DNA from: Thiothrix fructosivorans | Lineage (GTDB): Bacteria; Pseudomonadota; Gammaproteobacteria; Thiotrichales; Thiotrichaceae | Direction: 5' to 3' | NCBI RefSeq assembly: GCF_017349355.1 | Contig: NZ_JAFMPM010000007.1 | Coordinates: 186,001-250,000 of the forward strand | DNA length: 64,000 nucleotides | Shown here: in pieces, positions 32,963 through 39,484 of the stretch | Numbering within the stretch: the stretch's first letter is position 1 | Layout: the number at the start of each line of letters is the position of its first letter | Translations under genes and position numbers: made by a program | The notes under the pieces: generated by a model | What the model saw: only the letters and a program-made list of their open reading frames with translations | Told to the model about the DNA's origin: nothing | Databases searched by the model: none

Positions 32963-33766
32963 ATGAAAAAATGGTTGCTGTTAAGCATGGCTCTCTATTC
33001 CGCCAACGCATTGGCATTCCCCCGCGAAAACCCTGTCCCCGGCGGTATTGCCCACGTCACGATTGCCCCACTTTCCAACACTGCCCCAATTGTACAGTAT
33101 GCGGGGCAGCGGGTAACGGTTGTCCCCGTGGCATCGCAATGGGTCGCTTTGGTCGGCATTCCATTGGATGTGGAAGAAGGTACACAGCAATTAAATACGG
33201 CTAGCGGTGAACGTATTGCTTTTGAAATACAACCCAAGCAATACAAAACCCAGCACATTACCATCAGAGACAAAAACAAAGTTGACCCCGATGATGAATC
33301 CAGCGAACGCATCGTGCGTGAACTCGCCGTGCAACAACAGGCAAAAACCCACTTTACGGAAGGTGAAACACAACTGGATTTCATCAAGCCTGTACCGGGG
33401 CGCGATACAGGGCGGTTTGGTCTGAAACGTTTTATCAATAACCAACCGCGCAATCCGCACAGCGGCATGGACATTGCGGCTGCCACAGGCACACCTGTCG
33501 AAGCCACCGCTGCGGGGCGTGTCTTACATACCGACGATTTCTTTTTCAGCGGCAATACGGTATATGTTGATCATGGCGCAGGGGTGATTAGTCTGTACGC
33601 ACATTTGAGTGAGATTACTGTCAAACCCGGTGACGTGCTCCAACAAGGTGATATTGTTGGAAAAGTGGGCAGCACCGGACGGGCGACTGGCCCACATTTG
33701 CATTGGTCGGTGTATTTGAATGGCGAACCTGTAGACCCTGCGCTGTTTTTATCGAGCAAAAAATAA
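32963..33766 (+). CDS. M23-family peptidoglycan endopeptidase (LytM domain)
   Basis: 267-aa secreted protein with a clear signal peptide (KKWLLLSMALYSANALA, cut near ALA/F). The N-terminal half is a beta-rich domain; the C-terminal LytM/M23 domain has HSGMDIAA with the first zinc histidine, VYVDHGAGVISLYAHL and the catalytic HLHW. It should cleave peptide cross-links of peptidoglycan in the periplasm. Length is normal for this class. Confidence 0.92.
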   Translation: MKKWLLLSMALYSANALAFPRENPVPGGIAHVTIAPLSNTAPIVQYAGQRVTVVPVASQWVALVGIPLDVEEGTQQLNTASGERIAFEIQPKQYKTQHITIRDKNKVDPDDESSERIVRELAVQQQAKTHFTEGETQLDFIKPVPGRDTGRFGLKRFINNQPRNPHSGMDIAAATGTPVEATAAGRVLHTDDFFFSGNTVYVDHGAGVISLYAHLSEITVKPGDVLQQGDIVGKVGSTGRATGPHLHWSVYLNGEPVDPALFLSSKK

Positions 33767-33879: not shown

Positions 33880-34141
33880 AAAAAAATAAGCTTGTTCCGC
33901 CGTTCTGACACTCAATGGCATAAGAGATTCGAGATGACGGCACGCTGAGGTTAACTTTCTCAATCCTACCCTGACAACCGGCCATTTATTGGGGAGCTGG
34001 TTGCATGGTTAGCCTTGAGAACCAGAATGCGAGGTCGCAAACAGGGGGTTTGCTTGCATTCACTCCCGACAGCATAACGCTGCGGTGTTCTTAAAGTTCC
34101 CTTTACAAAAAGCGAGTCCTAATTACGGCTCGCTTTTTTTT
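33880..34141 (+). ncRNA. Putative structured small RNA ending in an intrinsic terminator
   Basis: The 518 bp between the M23 gene and the next small gene hold no long reading frame but contain several strong hairpins and a terminator too far from the M23 stop (about 340 bp) to belong to it alone. Hairpins: GCCGT...ACGGC near 33920-33950; CAACCGGC with GCTGGTTG (8 bp including one G-T) near 33978-34006; GAATGC with GCATTC enclosing GCAAAC/GTTTGC near 34026-34062; CAGC/GCTG near 34070-34082. The RNA start is uncertain; TATAGT at 33805-33810 is a possible -10. I looked for the conserved cores of 6S RNA, tmRNA, RNase P RNA and SRP RNA and did not find them. Confidence 0.4.
34107..34141 (+). terminator. 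Intrinsic terminator of the putative small RNA
   Basis: AAAAAGCGAG pairs with CTCGCTTTTT around a loop of about a dozen bases (TCCTAATTACGG), followed by a T run to 34141. It is the only strong terminator between 33767 and 34285. Confidence 0.85.
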
Positions 34142-34244
34142 CGTTCTGACACAAACATGCATTCATTATACAGCTTCCGTTCATAAATAAAATCTTTTTC
34201 TCAGTACCATGCTTGAATAGAATAGGCTATATCCCCACATACAC

Positions 34245-34254
34245 GCTACACTTA
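34245..34254 (+). promoter_or_regulatory. Sigma-S-like -10 element upstream of the XpaC/TelA operon
   Basis: GCTACACTTA matches the known sigma-S extended -10 pattern (KCTAYACTTAA) closely, with the hexamer TACACT at 34247-34252. It lies about 30 bp before the GTG start of the first small gene. No good -35 is present, which sigma-S promoters tolerate. The rpoS gene is at 26107-27123 in the same window. Confidence 0.45.
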
Positions 34255-34284
34255 GCCTTGATTATAAAAAGGAGGATCGGCACA

Positions 34285-34389
34285 GTGGCCTATGCACTAA
34301 AAAAGACAATTGGCTTTATTCTGTTGGTGGTGACTATTGGCGGCGTTAGTGCGTCATCTATCTTTCACCTCTTCCCTCCCCTATTCTAA
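34285..34389 (+). CDS. 34-aa single-pass membrane peptide
   Basis: A short frame beginning with GTG at 34285 after a strong AAAAGGAGG ribosome-binding site about 9 bases upstream, and ending in TAA at 34387. The product has a short basic start (MAYALKKT) and one hydrophobic segment (IGFILLVVTIGGVSASSIF), so it should sit in the inner membrane. The next gene starts 11 bp later. I know no family for it. The spacing, the ribosome-binding site and the membrane character of the neighbours support a real gene. Confidence 0.6.
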   Translation: MAYALKKTIGFILLVVTIGGVSASSIFHLFPPLF

Positions 34390-34400
34390 TAGGACACACC

Positions 34401-35267
34401 ATGACGACAACGGTCAAAACGGCTGCCAAACGCTACGAACCTGCCATTCACAATGTCCGCTATGGCATTAAGGGCATCTTGCTTTACGTACTTCCTCTCC
34501 CTGCATTGATTACCGCCATCGGCTCATTAATGCGCGGCGACGTCATGGATACACTGGTAACGGGGGGAATATTTGCAGCTTTCATGATAGGCGCAAGCAT
34601 TGCTCGCCACGGCTTCCGCCTGCAAGGTGAATACGAACGCCGTAAAATTGCGCGTGCCCCCACTACCCCCTTCAAAACGGTGGCAGCCCTGATTATCAGC
34701 ATTGCCACCGGCGCTTTAGAATGGTGGGGGAATGATTTCGCAATGGGTGATATTTTATCCTCAGCTCTGATCGGTGCAGTGACTTTCCTTGGCTTTGCGC
34801 TCTACTACGGGCTTGACCCGCGCAAAGATAAAGCGGGCAATATTTCCATCGGTGTCACCATCGAAGAAGTGCTAGAAGCGCTCGATGCCGCCAACGTCAA
34901 AATCGACGCGATTGAACAAGCCCGTCGCCAAATCCCCAACCCCGAATTCAATGCGCGTTTGCAGCGTATTACCAGCAAAGCCCGCGAAGTGTTGGAAAGC
35001 ATTGAAGAAGATCCCACGCGCCTCTCCCGTGCGCGTAAATTCCTCAAAGTTTATCTGGATGGCACACAGCGCGTGACCGAAGGCTACGCTCGCACTCATC
35101 AGGGAGAACGGGCAGTTGCTCTGGAAACCAATTTCAGTCGGGTGCTGGATTCGCTAGAACAGACTTTTACCGAGCAACAAACCAAATTGCTGGAAGACAA
35201 CCATTTTGATTTGGACGTACAAATAGAAGTGCTGGAAACCCAATTAAAGCGCGAAGGCGTCCTCTGA
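34401..35267 (+). CDS. XpaC-like (5-bromo-4-chloroindolyl phosphate hydrolysis) family protein
   Basis: 288-aa protein of the XpaC family, named after a Bacillus gene that affects indolyl phosphate hydrolysis but whose function is unknown. The N-terminal half has about four hydrophobic segments (GILLYVLPLPALITAIGSL, LVTGGIFAAFMIGASIA, VAALIISIATGAL, SALIGAVTFLGFALYYGL); the C-terminal half is cytoplasmic and helical. XpaC genes are usually next to telA-like genes, as here. It is the second gene of a probable five-gene operon that continues through 38824. Confidence 0.8.
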   Translation: MTTTVKTAAKRYEPAIHNVRYGIKGILLYVLPLPALITAIGSLMRGDVMDTLVTGGIFAAFMIGASIARHGFRLQGEYERRKIARAPTTPFKTVAALIISIATGALEWWGNDFAMGDILSSALIGAVTFLGFALYYGLDPRKDKAGNISIGVTIEEVLEALDAANVKIDAIEQARRQIPNPEFNARLQRITSKAREVLESIEEDPTRLSRARKFLKVYLDGTQRVTEGYARTHQGERAVALETNFSRVLDSLEQTFTEQQTKLLEDNHFDLDVQIEVLETQLKREGVL

Positions 35268-35297
35268 TACACCAACAAACCTAAGGAGAAAACTACT

Positions 35298-36467
35298 ATG
35301 AATGAAACACAAACAACAACAGCCGTACAAACTGCTCCAGCCATTATCCCCGGTACTGCCCTTGCGCCATTGCCCGAAATGACCACTGAACTGGTTGCCT
35401 ACGACCAAGCCAATGATGCCAATAAAAGTAAACTCGAAAACATCATCGCTGAAATCGACATGAACGACCGCAGCAGCATTATGTTCTTTGGCACGAAAAC
35501 CCAAGAGCAGATGACCACTATCTCTGAAAAAATGCTCAACGGTGTTAAAAACAAAGACATCGGTTCAGCAGGAAAATCCCTCACCAACATGGTCACGGCG
35601 ATTAAAGGCTTTGACATTGACGCACTCAACCCCAACGACGAGCCAAGCTGGTGGGAAAAACTCATTGGCAAAGCCAAGCCTGTGGTCGAATTCCTCAGCC
35701 AATACGAGGAAGTCCGCAAGCAAATCGACACCATCACTGATGAGATGGAAGGTCACAAAACCCAGTTGCTGACCGACGTGGTAACGCTCGACAAACTCTA
35801 CGAAGCCAACTTAGATTTCTTCCACAATCTGGAAGCGTACATTTCTGCTGGTGAAGAAAAACTGCGCCGTCTAGAAAGTACTGACATCCCTGCATTGGTT
35901 GCCAAAGTCGAAGCAAACACGGCGGATATGATCCTCGCACAAAACTTACGCGATCTGCGTAGCTCGCGGGACGATCTTGAACGCCGCGTCCACGACCTGC
36001 GTTTAACCCGCCAAGTCGCGATGCAAAGCCTGCCCAGCATCCGTTTGGTGCAGGAAAACGACAAAACCCTGATCAATAAGATCAATTCCACCCTGATCAA
36101 CACTGTACCGTTGTGGAAAAATCAGTTGGCACAAGCGGTCACCATTTTCCGCATGAGCGATGCGGCTGAAGTCGTCAAAAAAGCTTCCGACCTCACCAAC
36201 GAATTGCTGGAAAAGAACGCTGAAACCCTGCGTTTAGGTAATGCGGAAACCCGCAAACAAATGGAACGCGGCGTGTTCGACATTGAATCCGTGAAAAAAG
36301 CCAACCAAAGCCTGATCGACACCATCAACGACTCGCTGCGTATTGCGGACGAAGGCAAAGCCATGCGTGCCAAAGCCGAAGAAGAAATCAAGGTCATGGA
36401 AGGCGAACTGCGCCACGCCCTTACCGCAGCGAAATCCAAAGCCGCCAGCCCAAGCCAAGGAGCATAA
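35298..36467 (+). CDS. TelA/KlaA-family toxic anion resistance protein
   Basis: 389-aa soluble, mostly helical protein. The family pattern runs through the whole length, with GGSLTNMVT-like and WWEKLIGKAKP segments, SIMFFGTKTQEQM near the N-terminus and LRLTRQVAMQSLPSIRLVQENDKTLINKI in the middle. TelA was first linked to tellurite resistance on plasmids; chromosomal members have wider roles in membrane stress that are not settled. AAGGAG precedes the ATG. Downstream the SPFH gene begins 3 bp after the stop. Confidence 0.88.
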   Translation: MNETQTTTAVQTAPAIIPGTALAPLPEMTTELVAYDQANDANKSKLENIIAEIDMNDRSSIMFFGTKTQEQMTTISEKMLNGVKNKDIGSAGKSLTNMVTAIKGFDIDALNPNDEPSWWEKLIGKAKPVVEFLSQYEEVRKQIDTITDEMEGHKTQLLTDVVTLDKLYEANLDFFHNLEAYISAGEEKLRRLESTDIPALVAKVEANTADMILAQNLRDLRSSRDDLERRVHDLRLTRQVAMQSLPSIRLVQENDKTLINKINSTLINTVPLWKNQLAQAVTIFRMSDAAEVVKKASDLTNELLEKNAETLRLGNAETRKQMERGVFDIESVKKANQSLIDTINDSLRIADEGKAMRAKAEEEIKVMEGELRHALTAAKSKAASPSQGA

Positions 36468-36470
36468 ACC

Positions 36471-37568
36471 ATGGGATTATGGGACAAATTGATGGGTGAA
36501 TTCGTTGATGTCATCGAATGGACGGATAACAGCAGCGACACGATGGTCTACCGCTTTGAGCGCCACGGCAACGAAATCAAATTCGGCGCGAAGCTCACCG
36601 TGCGCGAATCGCAAGTCGCCATTTTCGTCAACGAAGGCGAAGTCGCGGACGTGCTAACACCGGGCATGTACGTGCTGGAAACCCAGAACCTGCCGTTGCT
36701 ATCCACCCTTCAACACTGGGATCACGGTTTCAGCAGCCCGTTTAAAGCGGAAGTGTATTTCTTCAACACCAAGCAATTCACCAACCTGAAATGGGGTACA
36801 CGCAACCCCGTGATGATTCGCGATAGTGAATTTGGCGGTGTGCGCATACGTGCTTTTGGTACGTATGGAATGCGCGTTGATGATGCCCGCAAATTCATGC
36901 AGGAAATCATGGGGACGGATGGGCATTTCACCGTCGATGAGATCAGTGATCAATTGCGCAACATCATCGTCACCCGTTTCAGCAGCATTGTTGCCAGCGC
37001 TAATATTCCGGTGCTGGATATGGCAGCCAACTACGAGCAACTTGGCACGTTTGTCACCCAGAAAATCGCTCCTGAATACGCGGCGTATGGTCTGAAACTG
37101 ACCTCGATTCTGGTCGAAAATATCTCCCTACCAACGGAAGTGGAAGAAGCACTCGACAAGCGTACCAGCATGGGCATGATCGGCAACCTAGACAAATACT
37201 TGCAATACCAAACCGCGCAAGGTGTCGGTAACGGCGGCTCTAATAGCGCGTTGGATATGGGAATGGGCTTTGCTGTTGCTAACAAAATGGCAGAAGTGCT
37301 GAATAAACCTGCCACTGCTGCTACCCCGCCACCGTTACCGGACACCAACTGGCATGTGGCGATTGGGCAAGAATCACGGGGGCCGTTGGGTCTTGCGCAA
37401 TTGCAGCAAATGGTGCAAAACGGGCAAATGACAGCGGCAACCTTGGTCTGGCAAGCGGGGATGGCGAATTGGCAAGCAGCGGGGGAAACGGCTGCCCTCA
37501 GTGGATTGTTTGCCACGCAAGCACCACCACCGATTCCACCCTCAGCGCCCCCCCAAAGTACACAATAA
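36471..37568 (+). CDS. SPFH-domain protein with C-terminal GYF_2 domain (YdjI type)
   Basis: 365-aa protein. An N-terminal SPFH/band-7-like domain covers about residues 1-260 (virion core/YdjI type, GLWDKLMGEFVDVIEW, TPGMYVLETQNLPLL, RKFMQEIMG). A proline-rich linker follows, and a GYF_2 domain near residues 287-345 has WHVAIGQESRGPLGLAQLQ and TLVWQAGMANWQAAGE. SPFH proteins form membrane scaffolds; GYF_2 binds proline-rich peptides, and the zinc-ribbon protein encoded next has a proline/glutamine-rich tail. Such genes co-occur with TelA and XpaC. A good ribosome-binding site (AAGGAG) precedes the ATG. Confidence 0.85.
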   Translation: MGLWDKLMGEFVDVIEWTDNSSDTMVYRFERHGNEIKFGAKLTVRESQVAIFVNEGEVADVLTPGMYVLETQNLPLLSTLQHWDHGFSSPFKAEVYFFNTKQFTNLKWGTRNPVMIRDSEFGGVRIRAFGTYGMRVDDARKFMQEIMGTDGHFTVDEISDQLRNIIVTRFSSIVASANIPVLDMAANYEQLGTFVTQKIAPEYAAYGLKLTSILVENISLPTEVEEALDKRTSMGMIGNLDKYLQYQTAQGVGNGGSNSALDMGMGFAVANKMAEVLNKPATAATPPPLPDTNWHVAIGQESRGPLGLAQLQQMVQNGQMTAATLVWQAGMANWQAAGETAALSGLFATQAPPPIPPSAPPQSTQ

Positions 37569-37591
37569 CAACAACGGCTTAGAAGGCTTCA

Positions 37592-38824
37592 ATGGCGGAT
37601 AACAAAACTAACCAACAGCACTTTCCCTGTGAACAATGTGGCGCGGATCAGGTGTACCAACCGGGTACGCAGACACTGACTTGCACGTATTGCGGGCATC
37701 AAAATGCAATACGCCAAGGTACGCAGGAAATTCGTGAGTACAGTTTCGAGCAAGCATTACGGGCTATCCAACAGGACAAATTACGCCCGTTGGATAACAC
37801 GCAAGTGGTTAAATGCCCCAACTGTGCCGCCATTTTTGAGCTGAAGCAAAACAATCACGCGGGTGATTGCCCCTTCTGTGGCACACCCGTGGTGACGGGG
37901 ACGGAACAAACCCGTTTGTTCCAACCCAAATCATTATTACCTTTTCTGATTACCGACAAAAATGCGCACGCCGCGTTTGATCAGTGGATCGGTAGCTTGT
38001 GGTTCGCGCCGTCTGCCTTGAAAGACAAAGCGAAGCGTGATGAAAAATTGCTGGGTATTTATATCCCGTATTGGACGTATGACAGCCATACCGATAGCTA
38101 TTATCGCGGTGAACGCGGCGTGATCTATTACGAACAACAAATGGTCACTGTTATCGTCAACGGTCAACCGCGTCAGCAAATGCAGAGTGTGCCACGGGTA
38201 CGTTGGACTCCCGTGAGTGGGCGGGTACGGCTGTTTTTCGATGATGTTTTAGTCGGTGCAACCCATACCCTACCCCGCACTATCTTAGACCGTTTAGAAC
38301 CGTGGGATTTACCGAATCTTATACCTTACAATGAAAGCTATTTGAGCGGTTTCCAAAGCGAAATCTATCAGGTGGATTTGGATGAAGGCTTCGAGCAAGC
38401 GCGGGGCGTTATGGATAGTCGCATTTACAACGCGATTATCAGCGACATTGGCGGCGACCAGCAGCGCGTACATAGCCTGCAAACTCAGCATTCTGCCACC
38501 ACCTTCAAACACGTATTATTGCCGGTGTGGTCAGCCGCGTTCCGCTATAACGGCGCAACCTACCGCTTTGTCATTAACGGGCGCAACGGCAAAACCCAAG
38601 GCGAACGCCCGTACAGCGTGGTAAAAATTGTGTTTGCTGCCTTACTCGGCATCACCTTATTGGGTGGCGTGGGGTATTACATGGAAAAAGCGGGAATGTT
38701 CGAGCAAATAATGCAACAAGGCGGCAGCTATCAATACCAGCAGTATCAGCCGCCACAACAGCAACGCTTACCTGACCCTTACCGCTATGACCCGTATCGC
38801 AGCAAGCCGAACGCTTACCGCTAG
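37592..38824 (+). CDS. Zinc-ribbon protein with C-terminal membrane segment
   Basis: 410-aa protein. Two zinc ribbons stand at the N-terminus: CEQCG...CTYCG and CPNC...CPFCG. A long central beta-rich region follows (IYIPYWTYDSHTDSYYRGERG). One membrane segment (IVFAALLGITLLGGVGYYM) is near residue 345-363, and the tail is rich in Gln, Pro and Tyr. Relatives are often mislabelled as helicase-related PriA-like proteins because of the ribbons; no helicase motif is present here. It is the last gene of the XpaC/TelA operon and could be the partner of the GYF_2 domain (inference). Confidence 0.75.
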   Translation: MADNKTNQQHFPCEQCGADQVYQPGTQTLTCTYCGHQNAIRQGTQEIREYSFEQALRAIQQDKLRPLDNTQVVKCPNCAAIFELKQNNHAGDCPFCGTPVVTGTEQTRLFQPKSLLPFLITDKNAHAAFDQWIGSLWFAPSALKDKAKRDEKLLGIYIPYWTYDSHTDSYYRGERGVIYYEQQMVTVIVNGQPRQQMQSVPRVRWTPVSGRVRLFFDDVLVGATHTLPRTILDRLEPWDLPNLIPYNESYLSGFQSEIYQVDLDEGFEQARGVMDSRIYNAIISDIGGDQQRVHSLQTQHSATTFKHVLLPVWSAAFRYNGATYRFVINGRNGKTQGERPYSVVKIVFAALLGITLLGGVGYYMEKAGMFEQIMQQGGSYQYQQYQPPQQQRLPDPYRYDPYRSKPNAYR

Positions 38825-38826
38825 CG

Positions 38827-39426
38827 TTACACGCCGTAGAGCTGTTGCATCAAACGCATCTGTTCCACGGTTGCATACGGCGTATCCAAAAACAGGATGA
38901 CATCGCGATGTGCTGTGTGTTGCTGAAGTTGTTCAAAAACGTCACGCAAGGCTAGCGGCGCGAAGGCTTGAGGGGAATGCAGCATACCGACTTGCGCCTC
39001 CGCTCCATTAGGCATTACCCCCAACCATTGCCCTGTCACGCGCTGATGCACGGCGAAACGTTCCACCCATGCCACAGGTAACAAAGGCATTGCATCGCTA
39101 TCGACCAGCAATCCCAACACTTTTTCCGCCAAATGCTGCTCTACCGTCATCTGTACTGACTGCCAATGTGCTGCCTGCAAAACATCACGGGTGAGTTCTA
39201 GGTAAAACCCAAAATCATCTGCGGTATCCTTTGCCCATGTTGCTACCGCCGCTAATGACACCGCATTCCACAGTGCCGCAGGCAATAGTATTCTACTGAA
39301 TTCATTAGCATAATAGGCAATATGCCACTCTGCTGGTAGATCATCAGGGTAAAAGACTTGCGCCCAATTGCTCGGCGACCAACCGTAGGCGGCAAGGGTT
39401 AGGCTGCTAAAAATAGGTTGCTGCAT
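38827..39426 (-). CDS. Conserved hypothetical protein, weakly DUF72-like
   Basis: 199-aa cytoplasmic protein. The opening (LTLAAYGWSPSNWAQVFYPDDLPAEWHIAYYANEFSRILLP) recalls the first strands of DUF72 proteins (YecE), where a Trp/Tyr-rich sheet of a TIM barrel is expected. The rest is shorter and more divergent than DUF72 (usually about 240-260 aa), so this may be a degenerate relative. A start 9 codons upstream is possible. It converges with the zinc-ribbon gene with 2 bp between stops and diverges from the DsrC-like gene. Confidence 0.55.
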   Translation of the reverse strand: MQQPIFSSLTLAAYGWSPSNWAQVFYPDDLPAEWHIAYYANEFSRILLPAALWNAVSLAAVATWAKDTADDFGFYLELTRDVLQAAHWQSVQMTVEQHLAEKVLGLLVDSDAMPLLPVAWVERFAVHQRVTGQWLGVMPNGAEAQVGMLHSPQAFAPLALRDVFEQLQQHTAHRDVILFLDTPYATVEQMRLMQQLYGV

Positions 39427-39484
39427 ACTCACTTGTTGCCGTACTCCATACATTAAAATGAAACATACCGTAAAGGTACAACAA

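Follow-up and report, generated by a model that had tools for sequence, protein, structure and literature searches.

A compact operon of five genes lies within a 64,000-nucleotide stretch of the Thiothrix fructosivorans genome (contig NZ_JAFMPM010000007.1, positions 186,001 to 250,000; the whole stretch is called the window below, and coordinates are its own). It encodes a 34-residue membrane peptide, an XpaC-like protein, TelA, an SPFH protein with a GYF_2 domain, and a zinc-ribbon membrane protein. Its single-copy distribution and synteny mark it as part of the vertically inherited core genome and not as a defence island. Its first and smallest member is, to judge from its substitution pattern and its distribution, a genuine coding gene that goes with xpaC. 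The five products most likely build an inner-membrane protection or maintenance complex, an interpretation held with slightly better than even confidence.

A conserved five-gene operon

The five open reading frames (ORFs) were verified on the window and are separated by intergenic gaps of 11, 30, 3 and 23 bp. The original prediction, which was made from the sequence alone, had given the same ORFs, spacing and domain assignments, and all were borne out by the ORF coordinates and by Pfam. The genes are as follows.

34285..34389, + strand: 34-residue single-transmembrane peptide MAYALKKTIGFILLVVTIGGVSASSIFHLFPPLF; GTG start, basic N terminus followed by a hydrophobic helix
34401..35267, + strand: XpaC-like membrane protein (PF10112) with a helical C-terminal domain after a hydrophobic N-terminal part; 34 orthologues
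35298..36467, + strand: TelA (PF05816); a model of low confidence shows helices H127-206 and H211-307 as a long hairpin
36471..37568, + strand: SPFH/Band_7_1 protein with a C-terminal GYF_2 domain
37592..38824, + strand: zinc-ribbon membrane protein with two CxxC-CxxC ribbons, a domain of long β-strands and a C-terminal transmembrane helix

The Pfam matches are above the cut-off for XpaC (PF10112, XpaC / Halogen_Hydrol, 1.4e-30), for TelA (PF05816, full length, residues 48-376, 1.6e-106) and for both parts of the SPFH protein (PF13421, Band_7_1, 1.7e-99; PF14237, GYF_2, 7.2e-17). The zinc-ribbon protein has no Pfam family above the cut-off. The genome contains one TelA. The PspA family (PF04012) has a single match in the genome, on contig C6, the window being on contig C7.

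A single copy of TelA is present in 16/16 genus genomes and in 19/20 others from the family, whereas only 1 of 21 more distant members of the class that were sampled has a match above the cut-off. The order XpaC-TelA-SPFH-zinc ribbon is identical in all 34 Thiotrichaceae loci that were fetched, contig ends excepted. Across the genus the intergenic gaps are mostly short, and the flanking genes are syntenic in most of it. The survey of gene neighbourhoods that the original prediction had asked for gave a conserved core, kept in Thiotrichaceae, Granulosicoccaceae and, with a DUF2927 gene inserted, Rhodobacteraceae; this shared gene set and order uphold its claim of a conserved operon.

Among 349 sampled Pseudomonadota genomes, the zinc-ribbon protein and TelA coincide in one alphaproteobacterial family, Rhodobacteraceae, where TelA is present in 105 of 120 genera sampled, and carriers include Ruegeria, Roseovarius, Shimia and Leisingera. 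The order in this family is XpaC-TelA-DUF2927-SPFH-(variable)-zinc ribbon. Granulosicoccus carries the set too, and the order in Granulosicoccaceae, XpaC-TelA-SPFH-zinc ribbon, is also found in several other gammaproteobacterial families. One annotated Paracoccus replicon has telA-DUF2927-SPFH-zinc ribbon without xpaC.

Variants of the layout were observed as well. In Rhodobacteraceae, telA and the SPFH gene are regularly separated by a gene with the size and position of DUF2927 (for example L101:5304-6275), which Pfam identifies in L101 and the annotation in L280. A divergent version in another gammaproteobacterial family (L115:2326-6814) has the peptide ahead of XpaC and TelA, and then a GYF_2 protein that matches Band_7_1 only weakly; a 201-residue protein without a family and a lytic transglycosylase come next.

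The small membrane peptide

The peptide gene is preceded by a ribosome-binding site.

34269..34275, + strand: AAGGAGG ribosome-binding site of the peptide

A hydrophobic ORF of 28-38 residues lies immediately before xpaC in 35/35 Thiotrichaceae loci (34 and the window; the start codon of L035 is ambiguous). The GTG start in the window aligns with ATG in nearly all relatives, and the family pattern is roughly M-[AP]-x-x-x-[KQ]-[KR]-x-[IV]-G-[FL]-[IL]-L-L. Within the genus the ratio of nonsynonymous to synonymous polymorphism (pN/pS) is 0.22, a value that indicates purifying selection, although synonymous sites are almost saturated, and codons differ at 55% of third positions compared with 6% of second positions. 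The suspicion that a small membrane peptide had been overlooked here is supported. No family in Pfam or NCBIfam covers it.

The peptide can be recognized beyond Thiotrichaceae by profile as well as by position. A profile of six Granulosicoccaceae peptides matched 33/34 Thiotrichaceae peptides and nothing else among 9177 segments. A profile of both families was searched against 8350 segments of loci unused in building it. The xpaC-adjacent peptides of 18/21 gammaproteobacterial XpaC loci, which represent about 14 further families, ranked before any unrelated match, the first of which had an E value of 0.91. In Gammaproteobacteria, the peptide profile thus recovers unseen members, in the same position.

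In Rhodobacteraceae, a transmembrane ORF of 24-40 residues is situated before xpaC in 46/49 loci. The same test gave 2.6% for dinucleotide shuffles, 0/50 for telA, 2/46 for the SPFH gene and 3/45 for the zinc-ribbon gene. A profile of the Rhodobacteraceae peptides recovers two of the remaining loci (L172 and L162), both of which were outside its training set. The Thiotrichaceae profile did not match the Rhodobacteraceae peptides, and profile-profile comparison of these with the gammaproteobacterial peptides gave a probability of 11-14%, with E about 0.002 in one comparison. The two groups, which may or may not be homologous, agree in place, length and topology.

Over the named loci, a peptide of this kind precedes 61 of 63 XpaC genes, two weak second XpaC matches being set aside. 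Its presence follows that of XpaC: L106 and L280, the two xpaC-less loci checked, showed none near telA, and none was seen upstream of the divergent XpaC genes in L118 and L120.

The ORF might instead be a regulatory leader, the translation of which controls xpaC, and not encode a functional protein. Its first position, its strong ribosome-binding site and its frequent abutment on, or overlap with, the xpaC start would suit such a leader. However, amino acids are conserved rather than codons, third positions being the most variable, and a protein profile recovers the peptide across many families. Furthermore, the composition is that of a basic N terminus and a hydrophobic helix, with no run of regulatory codons. 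A leader is, on this evidence, quite improbable.

In many gammaproteobacterial lineages the helix of the peptide upstream of xpaC ends in a lipobox-like cysteine (VASC, LTSC or MVSC; loci L202, L206, L210, L213, L313, L315, L322 and L326), which is replaced in the lineage of the window. Peptides with this cysteine may be tiny lipoproteins.

The SPFH and zinc-ribbon proteins and the flanking DNA

The features of the two distal genes are as follows.

37326..37340, + strand: PPPLP motif before GYF_2; PPP in 49/50 SPFH homologues
37350..37499, + strand: GYF_2 domain, residues 294-343 (Pfam)
37524..37538, + strand: PPPIP motif, C-terminal, after GYF_2; PP in 50/50 SPFH homologues
37628..37693, + strand: zinc ribbon 1 (C13, C16, C31, C34)
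37814..37879, + strand: zinc ribbon 2 (C75, C78, C93, C96)
38618..38689, + strand: predicted transmembrane helix, residues 343-366 of the zinc-ribbon protein (model helix H343-366), with the Pro/Gln-rich tail after it

The GYF_2 region matches the solved structure 7z3c with an E value of 2.4e-9. The classical ligand of GYF domains is of the PPG type, and many Rhodobacteraceae SPFH proteins end in PPPPPG(A/V). The original prediction suggested the Pro/Gln-rich tail of the zinc-ribbon protein as a possible ligand. This proposal was abandoned, since the tail is not conserved: just 4/23 and 3/31 tails contain PP, and the Rhodobacteraceae proteins stop right after the transmembrane helix. Moreover, the C-terminal position of the helix and the basic residues before it should, by the positive-inside rule, make the tail periplasmic and so separate it from the SPFH protein in the cytosol. 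Because PPP before and PP after the domain are near-universal, whereas PP in the tail is rare, binding within or between the SPFH proteins of an oligomer is the better hypothesis, and GYF_2 most likely binds the flanking PPPxP motifs of its own protein or of an SPFH neighbor.

All eight cysteines of the two zinc ribbons are invariant (alignments A1, A5 and A7). The model of the zinc-ribbon protein is confident (predicted local distance difference test, pLDDT, 84.2) and consists of the two ribbons, a domain with strands of at least 30 residues, and the membrane helix. Searches with Foldseek and VIA-align gave no convincing match, no Protein Data Bank chain having a Foldseek E value below 0.02 or a Z score above 2.7, and a new fold is not claimed. 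The TelA model (pLDDT 64.8) is mainly a long helical hairpin. An ESCRT-III/PspA-like fold was considered for TelA and set aside, as the model is too weak and Foldseek returned generic helical bundles only; a sequence search of the Protein Data Bank gave nothing except helical-fusion noise.

Two candidate elements lie upstream of the peptide gene.

34213..34226, + strand: TTGAATAGAATAGG block 5' of the peptide, a candidate regulatory or promoter element, largely kept in 16 aligned upstream regions of the genus
34246..34253, + strand: CTACACTT, an extended -10-like element

The sequence that had been described as a sigma-S-like -10 element is present at 34246-34253 and is kept in most, not all, of the 16 genus sequences; a scan for sigma-70 promoters gave nothing above chance. 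The upstream block, TTGAATAG..TAGG, is better conserved in the genus than this element and has a single exact copy genome-wide. When TTGAATAGNNTAGG was searched in the same genome with one mismatch, 16 sites were found, equal to the reversed control. No regulon is inferred for the block because its near-matches are no commoner than those of the control.

The closest terminator-like hairpin upstream of the operon is at 34107-34138, and an upstream gene for an M23 peptidase ends at 33766. A convergent gene downstream (38827-39453) encodes a short DUF72-like protein, scoring 24.6 bits against a Pfam cut-off of 25.3; it is retained in most loci of the genus, with lower identity than the operon.

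A proposed union of two modules, its possible function and known systems

The original prediction regarded the set as self-contained. This is correct in part only: TelA with XpaC, and the SPFH protein with the zinc-ribbon protein, are found as separate pairs too. Bacillus subtilis has an xpaC-yaaN pair in an annotated stretch without an SPFH or zinc-ribbon gene. Conversely, the SPFH-zinc-ribbon pair stands without TelA and XpaC in Vibrio, Comamonas, Tsukamurella and Enterococcus, and also in further Proteobacteria. In one Methylotuvimicrobium genome the two modules are apparently about 0.3 Mb apart. Since both pairs exist separately in other bacteria, the operon in the window is best read, from comparative gene content, as the union of two older modules, together with the peptide. 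In the Vibrio plasmid p1ST2 (L332:979-7041) the SPFH-zinc-ribbon pair is near genes for a TIR-domain protein and a TRAFs-binding-domain protein. In Enterococcus gallinarum (L335:4730-7907) the genes for an SPFH protein, a homologue of the zinc-ribbon protein and a TPM-domain protein form one run, which suggests a Bacillota version of the pair.

Conservation, gene linkage and domain content are demonstrated by comparison. The best explanation of them, by analogy, would be that xpaC-telA, an ancient pair for envelope stress, has joined a membrane platform of SPFH and zinc-ribbon proteins akin to PspA-YdjGHI, along with a new small subunit that accompanies XpaC. The peptide, a single helix with its N terminus inside, would sit in the inner membrane as a subunit of XpaC or as its regulator. 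The cytosolic domain of XpaC would recruit TelA, a protein with a long helical hairpin, and TelA would coat the membrane or act as a scaffold. The SPFH protein, having no transmembrane helix of its own, would assemble on the membrane via the zinc-ribbon protein, as YdjI does with YdjG and YdjH. Its GYF_2 domains would bind PPPxP motifs of neighboring SPFH subunits, thus cross-linking the scaffold, and upon envelope damage the assembly would stabilize or repair the membrane. In a bolder version, the chances of which are put appreciably below even, the peptides are a new family of 25-45-residue single-helix membrane proteins, an obligatory XpaC partner across Gamma- and Alphaproteobacteria. They would form a Psp-like membrane-repair machine with TelA in place of PspA, an SPFH/GYF_2 scaffold that cross-links itself, and the zinc-ribbon protein as its anchor.

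Several points weigh against such a complex. XpaC-TelA commonly has no SPFH gene beside it, and SPFH-zinc ribbon is likewise common without TelA, so that a single physical complex is not required. A PspA-like role of TelA is analogy only, because the model is poor and has no significant fold match. The likeness of the zinc-ribbon protein to YdjG is one of description and gene layout. No functional data were found for the set in any Pseudomonadota, and no paper on the TelA, XpaC and SPFH set was found in the open-licence literature.

The likeliest competing explanation, a minority possibility, is that an XpaC-TelA stress pair and an SPFH-zinc-ribbon membrane organizer share one transcript and have independent functions, with no joint complex. 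The separate pairs in B. subtilis and in the four genera named above, as well as the apparent split in Methylotuvimicrobium, speak for it. However, the same arrangement is retained in distant families, and where the modules are split both halves appear to be still present in the genome.

A tellurite or oxyanion resistance operon, in which TelA and its partners handle toxic anions and the others are accessory, is rather unlikely. It is favored by the name of the TelA family and by a Lactococcus small RNA that lowers ORF53/TelA/TelB/TelC and raises sensitivity to tellurite (PMC13109727). However, the operon contains neither a reductase nor a transporter, its almost universal vertical inheritance in two families points to housekeeping, and the Listeria telA mutant (lmo1967) is more sensitive to nisin as well as to tellurite (PMC12791056). 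An anti-phage or membrane-defence module, as originally suggested, would be compatible with membrane proteins and SPFH and with the TIR-domain neighbor on the Vibrio plasmid, but is very improbable, given that PADLOC protein models gave chance-level matches only (E 0.01-0.04), that the gene is single-copy in 35/36 family genomes with flanking genes common to most of the genus, and that no mobile context was seen at these loci.

TelA and XpaC are widespread and mechanistically open, having been named after assays that leave their role unexplained. The conserved partner set with its obligate-looking membrane peptide offers a concrete candidate complex in which to study the requirements of XpaC, the route of TelA to the membrane and the assembly of GYF_2-SPFH scaffolds. 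The peptide family is also a clear example of a conserved small protein without a curated family model.

The operon resembles four known systems in part. Plasmid-borne TelA is frequent (608 plasmid records with a TelA match), most listed copies being only 27-38% identical; on Paracoccus and Pseudorhodobacter replicons (TelA 54% identity), SPFH and zinc-ribbon genes are near telA. The Myxococcus gliding-motility protein AglX/GltJ shares the GYF_2 domain, as seen in the partial match to NCBIfam GltJ and the match to 7z3c. However, the overlap is confined to the GYF_2/proline region, and the operon has no motility genes.

The xpaC-telA (yaaN) pair of Bacillota has the two genes adjacent and is induced by envelope stress, which supports the envelope-stress theme of the original prediction. 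In a Lactococcus study of CesSR, xpaC was induced 10.3-fold and telA 3.4-fold (PMC3139573), and Listeria lmo1966-1967 is discussed as upregulated by garvicin KS (PMC12791056). The B. subtilis xpaC-yaaN locus differs in having csfB upstream, and the peptide profile matches nothing there.

A parallel in kind is pspA-ydjGHI of B. subtilis, an SPFH-linked phage-shock operon (PMC8581546, PMC9239133), in which a stress effector is likewise encoded beside a zinc-ribbon transmembrane protein and an SPFH protein that lacks a transmembrane helix of its own. YdjI depends on YdjG/YdjH for its membrane localization and in turn localizes PspA (PMC8581546). In the window, by contrast, there is no PspA among the five genes and TelA with XpaC stands in its place; a GYF_2 domain is found where YdjI has a zinc finger near its C terminus; and the small peptide is at the front.

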